Virus record (IMG/VR): IMGVR_UViG_3300028025_002703
Span: 1-22,571 of that record
Reading direction: 5' to 3' (one strand)
DNA length: 22,571 nucleotides
Source: a virus
Shown here in pieces: positions 11 through 21,252 of this stretch (within the stretch, counting starts at the first letter, position 1; each line of letters begins with the position of its first letter). The translations under genes were made by a program, and so were the position numbers. Under the pieces are notes generated by a model. It made no database searches. It was not told where the DNA came from and was given only the letters and a program-made list of their open reading frames with translations.

Positions 11-89
11 GGGGCAGATTTGGTATCGACTAGCATTAACTCCGCATGACGGAAGTGTTAGGAATCGAGTTCGACTCTCGACTGCTCCA
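11..89 (+). ncRNA. tmRNA-like RNA reduced to a tRNA-like domain
   Basis: The 5' end GGGGCAG (11-17) pairs over 7 bp with CTGCTCC (82-88), including a G3-U70 wobble and an A discriminator (89), the alanine-acceptor signature. A canonical 5-bp T arm with a TTCGACT loop lies at 65-81. There is no D stem: 21-32 reads TTGGTATCGACT, and its GGTATCGACT part closely matches the D-loop of actinobacterial tmRNA (GGTTTCGACT, from memory). Compared with the tmRNA acceptor (GGGGCUG/CAGCUCC) only pair 6-67 differs, and both sides changed so pairing is kept. No 5+7+5 anticodon arm can be drawn. Instead 37-40/57-60 and 41-44/50-53 form one hairpin with a CATGA loop. The mRNA-like domain and pseudoknots of a normal tmRNA (about 350 nt) are absent. 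CCA is not encoded. It could be a functional mini-RNA or a deletion remnant. Confidence 0.6.
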
Positions 90-10115: not shown

Positions 10116-10439
10116 ATGGCTAAAAATATTGCCCCAGTACCAGCGGCTGGTTCAGCACCTGCCTCGACTAACCCTATCAATTCTTCTGGCGTGCCTAAGC
10201 AAGGTAAGCTAATTAAAAAGGGCCACAGCAAGTCTGTAGACCCATATACTTTTCCTGCAGGCCCTGCATATGTTTACGCTCCAAAAGAGCGTAGTGGCGC
10301 TGTTTACGGTGTACAGGTAGGCTTTGAAGCCCACACTGCCCCAGAAGCTGGTAGCACACAGGGAAATGGTCGTATTGTGAACCACGCAATCAACCGTTCA
10401 GCCCCTAACTTCAGAGTTGGTATGCAGCCACAACAGTAA
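10116..10439 (+). CDS. Hypothetical Ala/Pro/Ser-rich protein
   Basis: A 107-residue protein without recognised domain. Residues 1-30 are Ala/Pro/Ser-rich and disordered. A short basic stretch (KQGKLIKKGHSK) follows, then a more ordered segment with aromatic residues (YTFPAGPAYVYAPKER, then GVQVGFEAH) that is probably beta. The ribosome-binding site is AAGAGG (10106-10111). Its composition resembles the unknown proteins at 11847-14356, and it may belong to the same functional group. The tandem 10-bp repeats begin 11 nt after its stop. Confidence 0.75.
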   Translation: MAKNIAPVPAAGSAPASTNPINSSGVPKQGKLIKKGHSKSVDPYTFPAGPAYVYAPKERSGAVYGVQVGFEAHTAPEAGSTQGNGRIVNHAINRSAPNFRVGMQPQQ

Positions 10440-10450
10440 TTTTTGGGCTA

Positions 10451-10490
10451 AAGTACATCAAAGTACACAGAAGTCCATAGACGTACACTC
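10451..10490 (+). repeat. Four tandem 10-bp repeats containing GTACA
   Basis: Four consecutive decamers: AAGTACATCA, AAGTACACAG, AAGTCCATAG, ACGTACACTC (consensus close to AAGTACAYAG). The GTACA cores are at 10453, 10463, 10473 (as GTCCA) and 10483, exactly one helical turn apart. The array is intergenic, between a stop codon and a terminator. It shares its core with the boxes at 1096-1122 upstream of the RHH gene, so it may be an operator array or iteron-like protein-binding site. Confidence 0.7.
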
Positions 10491-10504
10491 GTCAAAAACA
10501 AGTT

Positions 10505-10540
10505 AAACCCCGCTCAAATTATGGGCGGGGTTTTGCTTTT
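10505..10540 (+). terminator. Intrinsic terminator
   Basis: AAACCCCGC (10505-10513) pairs with GCGGGGTTT (10525-10533) over 9 bp around an 11-nt loop. It is followed by TTTTGCTTTT. It ends the transcript carrying spoVS and the gene at 10116. Confidence 0.88.
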
Positions 10541-10560
10541 CCTATTATCTGTGTTATGTT
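10533..10560 (+). promoter_or_regulatory. Candidate promoter for the HTH/phosphoesterase pair
   Basis: TTGCTT (10533-10538) and TATGTT (10555-10560), separated by 16 bp, lie just after a terminator and 35 bp before the next start codon. Both hexamers are imperfect, so the call rests mainly on position. An alternative -10 is TATGCT (10560-10565). Confidence 0.3.
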
Positions 10561-10594
10561 ATGCTGAAGAGCAACATAGGAATAGGAGAGCACT

Positions 10595-10828
10595 ATGCTT
10601 GGTGACATTATTAAAACGCACCTAGAACAGACAACACCTAGATGCACGGTCGGTAAGTGGGTTTTATCGTTAGACGCACCAGACCAAAACGAGTTTAACA
10701 CGTTGTTCGATATGAAGCTTAATTACGCCTCTTTCTACAGACTGCTAGAAAAAAGCACTCAAGTTCCTTTTAAATTAACTAGTTTTAAATCGCATATGCG
10801 AGGAGATTGTTCATGTCCAAAACGCTAA
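10595..10828 (+). CDS. Small HTH-like protein coupled to the phosphoesterase
   Basis: A 77-residue protein. The C-terminal half (NYASFYRLLEK, then PFKLTSFKSHMRGDC) has the helix-turn-helix look of small actinophage DNA-binding proteins that end in a HxRGxCxC-like motif. The cysteine pair C72-x-C74 at the very end may bind metal. The N-terminal half resembles a small helical cap. GGAGAG lies upstream of ATG 10595. The gene overlaps the phosphoesterase by 16 nt, and its last codons contain that gene's ribosome-binding site. The HTH assignment is tentative. Confidence 0.65.
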   Translation: MLGDIIKTHLEQTTPRCTVGKWVLSLDAPDQNEFNTLFDMKLNYASFYRLLEKSTQVPFKLTSFKSHMRGDCSCPKR

Positions 10829-19307: not shown

Positions 19308-19753
19308 TATTTGCAGACGACGTTATTCGTAACCCCCGAGATCAATCGCCAATTACCCCAGGGATTGCACTATACAAGTCTTTAAACGAGACTAATAGGG
19401 TTTTAGTTATTGCTGAAGATCGCGAAAAAACTGAAATTTGGATGAAAACGCATAATATTGCAAAACGCCTTGATGATATTGTTCAAATTGTAGACGACCC
19501 TGCTCGTGACCCAAAGTTATCCACAATCGATTTTATACGAAGCAAGACAAAGATCACCGCAGTGGTCACCGCTGATTCAGATTTGACTAAACAATTATTA
19601 GAACTGGGTATAACGGTATTAGTTTTCCTAAACCCTAAATACGCTAGGCCCGAATTCAGGCCCGATGGGCGTGAAGGCGTAAAGAGCTGGGAAGCCATTG
19701 TAGAAGAGCTTGACAAGCAACAAGGCCTATATTCAGAAGATCCACGCCTGTGA
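19295..19753 (+). CDS. Possible HAD-like protein
   Basis: A 152-residue alpha/beta protein. It opens with a strand ending in two acidic residues (MSILIFADDVI), then a helix and strand (RVLVIAED), a helix (EKTEIWMKTHNI) and later VVTADSDLTKQLLELG before a strand ITVLVFLNP. This order resembles compact HAD-superfamily hydrolases, but the DxDx(T/V) motif is imperfect (ADDVI), so activity is doubtful. The start is either ATG 19295 or GTG 19286; AGGAAG at 19277-19282 could serve either. It overlaps the downstream gene by a GTGA junction. Confidence 0.6.
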   Translation: MSILIFADDVIRNPRDQSPITPGIALYKSLNETNRVLVIAEDREKTEIWMKTHNIAKRLDDIVQIVDDPARDPKLSTIDFIRSKTKITAVVTADSDLTKQLLELGITVLVFLNPKYARPEFRPDGREGVKSWEAIVEELDKQQGLYSEDPRL

Positions 19754-21252
19754 AATTAATTTATTTGGGTGCAGATGTTCCCAGTAACAGGGTAATTCTA
19801 GAGACCATGGGCGTTAAACACGTTGGCGTGTCCTTCTGGAGATTAGTTAAGCGCGGTCTGCCTAAGAATAAGACATATTTGCTGGAGAACTACTTTCCTG
19901 ATTACATGAGCATTCATGTCCACCCAGGTATCCCCGAAAACACAGTTTTGAGTCCAGATGAGCTGGAAGAATTTACCGTAGCTTACGAGAGTTTTTTAGC
20001 GTTTAATATGGAACGCCTCAATTCATTTATTGAAATAGACCATCCAAGCCTGTCTAAAGAAGATATGCTAGCTCAGCGCCAAGCTGCCTGGAAAGACGAG
20101 CCAGATAAGTTCTGGGCTATTATTCGTGAAGACAACTCCTATTCTGAAATAGTAGAGATGTGTCAGCAGTTTACTAATATTGCAATACCTTATTCTTTGA
20201 TCGAATCTGACGTATCCATGGCCGCCAAAACGCGGGCCCTAACGTCACAATATGGAACAATATTCCATGCCATAGCCTGTGCCAAGCCAGATAACCTGCG
20301 TCAAATTCATGTGGCTACCGCAAGCACAATGTCATGGTTGTCCCCTATGATGCGTGGAGAGACTATAGTTTGGGACGGTAATAAGTTACTTAGATACCCC
20401 AAAAAAATGAAAGACCAAGCCCGACCAAGGTACAAAGCGGTGTACGAGAAAGCGGGGCTAGACTTTGATAAAATTATGTCAGACGATCCCGTAGAGGTGG
20501 CTAAATTAGCCCTATGGTCGTACGACCAATTCGAGGAGCGTTTTAATATGGTTAATAACCCTTTCCTAATTCCTGACGATGACGATGAGTTATTTGATGA
20601 CCTGTTAGATACTACGAGTGGGAAACTGCAAGACACTCCAAACGCGGAAACTGATACCGACATAGTGTATAAGACGGGTAGTGAAGTGCGGAAACTTGAA
20701 GTGCGTGACGCATCTGAAATTACCAGTCTACCTGTCTTTGGAACAGAGTTTAAAACTGTCGTAGAGCAGGATGAAGAAGGTCGAGACATCCTAGTTGATG
20801 TCCCATTATTGCGGTCTAACAGCACAAGTCTACGAATCTGTGACACCTGTTTTGTCGCGTCGAATTGCCCTGCATTTAAGCCTAAAAACACTTGCGCTTT
20901 TAACTTACCAGTAGAGGTAAAGACTAAAGAACAACTGCGCGCATTGCTTAATGCAATCGTAGAGATGCAGGGTCAAAGAGTAGCATTTGCAAGGTTTTCC
21001 GAGGAAATAAATGGTGGCTACCCTGACCCAAATACTAGCCAAGAAATTGATAGACTATTTAAACTCATTAAGACAATCAAAGAACTTGACGACTCGCGAG
21101 AATTCATTAGAATGACTGTAGAGAGGCAAGGAACAGGTGGAGTTTTGTCTGCTATTTTTGGTGACAGAGCCCAAGCCTTAACTGAACTTCCTAATGGTGG
21201 GATTGACAGCGAGAACACCACTCGCATCATCCAGCAAGCCATTGAAGATTAA
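19750..21252 (+). CDS. Large hypothetical protein with Cys4 cluster
   Basis: A 500-residue protein of at least three parts. Residues 1-230 are alpha/beta (MKLIYLGADVPSNR), with a likely Rossmann or barrel start. Residues 270-345 are highly acidic (PDDDDELFDDLLD) and probably a flexible linker. Residues 350-500 contain C364-x2-C367-x5-C373-x8-C382, which could bind zinc or an Fe-S cluster, then a long helical block (QEIDRLFKLIKTIKELDDSR) with a well-ordered look. The start is GTG 19750, overlapping the previous stop (GTGA). I recognise no enzyme motif. It sits between a possible HAD-like gene and nrdJ, consistent with nucleotide or DNA metabolism. Confidence 0.75.
   Translation: MKLIYLGADVPSNRVILETMGVKHVGVSFWRLVKRGLPKNKTYLLENYFPDYMSIHVHPGIPENTVLSPDELEEFTVAYESFLAFNMERLNSFIEIDHPSLSKEDMLAQRQAAWKDEPDKFWAIIREDNSYSEIVEMCQQFTNIAIPYSLIESDVSMAAKTRALTSQYGTIFHAIACAKPDNLRQIHVATASTMSWLSPMMRGETIVWDGNKLLRYPKKMKDQARPRYKAVYEKAGLDFDKIMSDDPVEVAKLALWSYDQFEERFNMVNNPFLIPDDDDELFDDLLDTTSGKLQDTPNAETDTDIVYKTGSEVRKLEVRDASEITSLPVFGTEFKTVVEQDEEGRDILVDVPLLRSNSTSLRICDTCFVASNCPAFKPKNTCAFNLPVEVKTKEQLRALLNAIVEMQGQRVAFARFSEEINGGYPDPNTSQEIDRLFKLIKTIKELDDSREFIRMTVERQGTGGVLSAIFGDRAQALTELPNGGIDSENTTRIIQQAIED

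Follow-up and report, generated by a model that had tools for sequence, protein, structure and literature searches.

Structure of the element at 11-89

The window, a viral contig of 22,571 nt (IMG/VR record IMGVR_UViG_3300028025_002703, positions 1 to 22,571), carried a complete tmRNA tRNA-like domain (TLD) without a tag reading frame on the plus strand at positions 11-89. This TLD-only or mini-tmRNA gene spanned 78 nt up to its final acceptor base, followed by the discriminator A. The 5’ strand of the acceptor stem (11-17, GGGGCAG, G1-G7) formed seven of seven pairs with the 3’ strand (82-88, CTGCTCC), including G3 opposite U70. A stemless D segment at 18-29, ATTTGGTATCGA, had the tmRNA-like GG..UCGAC and aligned to the start of the Rfam tmRNA model RF00023. 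In the minimum free energy (MFE) fold, 30-37 and 54-61 formed the P2 helix, and the intervening positions 38-53, an internal loop (38-40) and an apical hairpin (41-44/50-53), occupied the place of the mRNA-like domain. The T arm at 65-81 (stem 65-69/77-81, loop TTCGACT) was evident in the sequence, the RF00023 alignment, and the fold, and was followed by discriminator A73 at position 89. CCA was not fully encoded (ACGT at 89-92) and would be added by a host enzyme. The MFE was -27.2 kcal/mol, with a z-score of -2.7 versus shuffled sequences.

RF00023 was the sole Rfam match at the locus (cmscan, 11-92, 46.1 bits, E = 1.7e-17). The alignment spanned both TLD ends, with a short insert replacing 306 model positions. 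Pseudoknots PK1-PK4 were missing along with these positions, and the mRNA-like domain with its resume codon, tag frame, and stop was absent. Because 46.1 bits falls just under the RF00023 gathering score of 47, a default Rfam scan misses the window element; 46 of 50 records of relatives scored above that cut-off. A separate RF00023 genome search over the window listed no match, discordant with cmscan. The element begins 11 bases in from the end of the contig, and relatives with 96% identity scored 56.7–61.7 bits in the same kind of search, so we attribute the discrepancy to the contig edge or to a prefilter.

ARAGORN is a common annotation tool for phage tRNAs and tmRNAs. It overlooked the mini-tmRNA gene and called no tRNA at 11-89, while the same run recovered a tRNA-Asn and a tRNA-Arg elsewhere in the window; the fold of 11-89 likewise lacked a D stem and an anticodon arm. 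The original prediction, a tmRNA reduced to its TLD with the acceptor stem, G3-U70 pair, discriminator A, T arm, and stemless D-loop of tmRNA rather than tRNA, was thus borne out by the sequence, RF00023, and the fold. Its description of the insert as a single hairpin held in that a hairpin caps P2, but not in full, as an internal loop interrupts the helix. The element is a TLD-only tmRNA of the type reported from mycobacteriophage DS6A, neither a standard tmRNA nor a tRNA.

Genomic neighborhood and predicted host

Two tRNA genes lay on the same strand as the mini-tmRNA, tRNA-Asn(GTT) at 124-196 and tRNA-Arg(TCT) at 1015-1088. Of three relatives with near-identical elements (L001-L003), L003 likewise had a tRNA-Asn immediately downstream. 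In L001-L003 the element is preceded by a -10-like TATGGT, which we rejected as a promoter because it apparently sits inside the end of the upstream reading frame. The window DNA polymerase was closest (38–40% identity) to those of the Streptomyces phages Alone3, LuckySocke, GiJojo, pSt2308, and BRock, each of which also has a copy of the mini-tmRNA. The window also contained a WhiB gene, and from these two sequence features we consider the host very probably actinobacterial. WhiB was found in 20 of 50 carrier records, and therefore not every carrier need be an actinophage. At 19750-21249 the window encoded a queuine tRNA-ribosyltransferase-like protein (phrog_887) that perhaps serves 7-deazaguanine DNA modification.

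Distribution of the mini-tmRNA

A pattern of the two TLD halves searched against viral contigs retrieved 67 stretches of ~67–91 nt, 65 of which paired at 5–7 acceptor positions and kept the T arm intact. The identical pattern run on 84,980 bacterial and archaeal genomes (257 Gb) served as an empirical null and gave 19 matches. Seventeen were chance matches with 1–6 acceptor pairs and no proper T arm, and the two real ones were contigs of MAGs, one of them sharing sequence with several viral contigs. This comparison shows that the mini-tmRNA is essentially viral. A contig of a MAG labeled as an archaeon (NZBO01000077.1, L165) had at 150-227 a mini-tmRNA resembling the copies of several viral contigs, and is probably a viral contig binned into the MAG. 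Three more viral scans brought the family to at least 214 unique sequences in at least 277 loci. Some hits of the 3’-anchored scan, with only 1–5 acceptor pairs, were dropped as permuted tmRNA halves or chance. In one member (L015), ARAGORN called a 396-nt tmRNA at 10221-10616 with an odd 24-aa tag that overlapped the mini-tmRNA; this call is apparently a spurious extension.

BLAST with the window element itself recovered no named phage beyond chance, while divergent family members and a consensus-like query did. After inspection of the sequences, the cultured carriers included the Streptomyces phages Shaeky, LuckySocke, GiJojo, pSt2308, and BRock and Pontimonas phage phiPsal1. The 3’-end BLAST matches in SM1, S-CAM1, CcrBL9, RpAliso, and GMA2 were rejected as TLD-only forms, as these are permuted or full-length tmRNAs. 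In Shaeky the unannotated mini-tmRNA sat between tRNA-Phe and tRNA-Leu. In phiPsal1 (L187, 1501-1580) it followed the prohead protease region and came just before the major capsid gene, a position from which it may be made with the late transcripts. An intact copy was also present on the 27-kb plasmid NZ_CP053567.1 of Pseudonocardia broussonetiae (L188, 3001-3080); this plasmid encodes a tyrosine recombinase as well, and is possibly a phage-plasmid. Streptomyces phage Alone3 (OR725492.1; L174, 587-666) contained a degenerate copy with a mismatched T stem and 36.8 bits. Its close relatives keep intact copies, so the function can apparently be lost.

Placement differed by lineage: several had the mini-tmRNA near terminase and portal genes, and a few had it ahead of capsid genes. 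tRNA genes lay within about 1 kb at about 15 of the 60 loci scanned. Two loci had a nearby tRNA with a CTA anticodon (ARAGORN: Pyl; L041, 1859-1932; L051, 1365-1438), a possible amber suppressor. Across 50 carrier records, some of them fragments, we found neither an SmpB gene nor a second tmRNA, standard or permuted, above the cut-off. Consequently SmpB, if the mini-tmRNA uses it, would be that of the host.

Covariation and conservation

We counted base pairs over 90 sequences less than 90% identical to each other and compared them with shuffles, using fixed anchors because MAFFT displaced the acceptor where the D segment was 12 nt long. The P1 (acceptor), P2, and T stems all show strong covariation, so the outcome that the original prediction named as refuting, relatives lacking conserved pairings, did not arise. 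Acceptor pairs 5 and 6 were each formed in 87/90 sequences (35 and 49 in shuffles), P2 pairs 1–5 in 78–90 (shuffles 37–40), and T-stem pairs 1–4 in 89–90 (shuffles 37–72). Acceptor pair 6-67, which the original prediction had described as changed on both sides, did vary on both, occurring as T-A (48), C-G (18), A-T (14), and G-C (4) among the 90 sequences. The layout of internal loop and apical hairpin seen in the window recurred in relatives, with the hairpin often AAAGCCGCAYGCGGAAC.

Alanine identity was nearly invariant. G3.U70 was present in 168/169 unique relatives and A73 in 169/169, though the initial patterns specified G1-G4 or some of the 3’ end, and conservation at the specified positions is no evidence. 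Two scans with the acceptor unspecified gave 101 further unique sequences, in which G1-C72 occurred in 101/101, G3.U70 in 100/101, and A73 in 101/101, with the mild bias that the acceptor start was set by best pairing and G-U was counted. Pair 4 of these same sequences varied (G-C 65, C-G 22, T-A 6, A-T 5). The conserved alanine-acceptor module that had been proposed from the window is confirmed.

A hidden mini tag was not conserved: GCN followed by a stop was found in 70/204 sequences versus 43–80 in shuffles. The GCA TGA in the apical loop of the window (Ala codon, stop) was rejected as such a tag for the same lack of conservation among relatives. The element itself was 96–97% identical between the window and L001, L002, and L003, while the aligned flanking DNA was mostly 69–72% identical, with some stretches at 76–88%.

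Comparison with known tmRNAs

The original prediction knew of no described phage RNA of this form. This was incorrect: a tmRNA consisting of little but the TLD had already been reported for mycobacteriophage DS6A (Mao et al. 2009, RNA Biol 6:355, as cited in PMC4131195 and PMC11915505). Like the window element, it is a phage TLD without a tag frame; it differs in phage lineage and sequence, and in that the window copy stands beside tRNA genes. One record of our family (L124) has 60,588 bases, 69% GC, and an Amidase_2 lysin. DS6A is 60,588 bases long (PMC10654092) and its published lysin is Ami-2B, so we take this record as DS6A and its copy, which has the same layout and apical hairpin as the window, as a member of the family.

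Bacterial tmRNA (RF00023) shares with the window element the acceptor stem, G3.U70, A73, D segment, T arm, and start of P2, but is about 370 nt long versus 78 nt and has the mRNA-like domain and pseudoknots. Full-length phage tmRNAs (Streptomyces phages Annadreamy and Beuffert, mycobacteriophage Bxz1, Bacillus phage G) have the same TLD and often accompany tRNA genes, whereas their tag frame (in Beuffert, ANSKNASAYALAA) and pseudoknots are both absent here. In Gordonia phage GMA2, which has a full-length tmRNA, we also observed a match to the Pistol ribozyme (L182, 942-998, 56.8 bits) directly after a tRNA-Trp gene. Tag-less mitochondrial tmRNAs and the ~65-bp plastid tmRNAs of Mallomonadaceae likewise combine a tmRNA-type TLD with no tag frame (PMC11915505). 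These are organellar, and the mitochondrial forms are usually permuted and have a nucleus-encoded SmpB (PMC11915505), in contrast to the unpermuted phage element with its capped P2.

Proposed function

We favor, as the likeliest reading, that the mini-tmRNA can be charged with alanine and works as a decoy, drawing host SmpB and stalled ribosomes away from trans-translation, one of the roles raised in the original prediction. A phage transcript would contain it, host tRNA-processing enzymes would trim it out, and after gaining CCA it would receive alanine from the host alanyl-tRNA synthetase (AlaRS). Host SmpB and EF-Tu would bind it as they do tmRNA. With neither resume codon nor tag frame, it would keep SmpB and stalled ribosomes occupied while the nascent chain stayed untagged. 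Host trans-translation would be lowered during infection, and phage proteins would benefit by escaping tagging and proteolysis.

Inhibition of tmRNA by our element is argued by analogy, as it has been assayed for the DS6A form or a similar molecule only. PMC4131195 describes the DS6A sequence as little more than a TLD and reports strong inhibition of tmRNA by a similar molecule, whether or not it can be charged, with SmpB titration as a possible mechanism. PMC11915505 states that inhibition of the endogenous tmRNA in E. coli has been demonstrated for the DS6A form. Because that inhibition needs no alanine charging (PMC4131195), pure titration does not explain a near-invariant alanine identity. 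The conserved identity elements suggest that a step after charging probably matters. If charging matters, the ribosome is the probable site of action, with the mini-tmRNA either causing a block there or freeing an untagged chain.

The second of these actions leads to the main rival of the decoy, tag-free ribosome rescue, which we regard as possible though clearly the less favored reading. Alanyl mini-tmRNA with SmpB would enter non-stop ribosomes, accept the nascent chain on its alanine, and then be released, for example by peptidyl-tRNA hydrolase, so that the ribosome is freed and the protein is left unmarked for proteolysis. Near-invariant alanine identity is what would be expected if charging matters, the apical hairpin in place of the mRNA-like domain is conserved, and tag-less mitochondrial tmRNAs are themselves conserved and co-occur with mitochondrial SmpB (PMC11915505). 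Against this, no known step ends such a reaction without the stop codon of a tag, and in the published data (PMC4131195) the similar molecule inhibits and does not rescue. A broader form of this idea, which we put forward as speculation, is a widespread viral tag-free trans-translation in which charged mini-tmRNA and host SmpB free stalled nascent chains unmarked, with the loop and hairpin replacing the mRNA-like domain.

The near invariance of the AlaRS identity elements would also suit a decoy aimed chiefly at AlaRS or EF-Tu, cutting the supply of alanyl-tRNA, rather than at SmpB. We consider this improbable: an acceptor-T minihelix would suffice for AlaRS, but the family also retains P2 and the D segment specific to tmRNA. 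Still less credible is that integration into host ssrA left the element behind as an attachment site or a relic without function. Phage integration at tmRNA genes does occur (PMC10654092) and the T stem of the Alone3 copy is broken, but the 5’ and 3’ halves of the element are complete, it is far better conserved than its flanks, and no integrase was among the commonest family matches of flanking genes. Covariation over the 90 sequences refutes a relic for the family as a whole and contradicts the earlier suggestion of a decaying phage ssrA remnant. An unusual tRNA with a normal anticodon arm would fit the tRNA genes that adjoin the element here and at about a quarter of loci scanned, but is practically ruled out by the tmRNA-only Rfam match, the missing arms, and the absence of an ARAGORN call.

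Significance

TLD-only phage tmRNA had previously been in effect one curiosity, that of DS6A, and the 2025 tmRNA database holds nine ‘standard, no CDS’ sequences in all. The kind was thus known already; what is new, judged by a literature search limited largely to open-access papers, is its breadth, its conserved layout, and the conservation of alanine identity. The near-invariant alanine identity, unneeded in the published inhibition, poses a sharp question that is answerable with laboratory Streptomyces phages. More than 200 distinct, covarying copies over many viral contigs point to a recurrent viral strategy that acts against, or in place of, host ribosome rescue.
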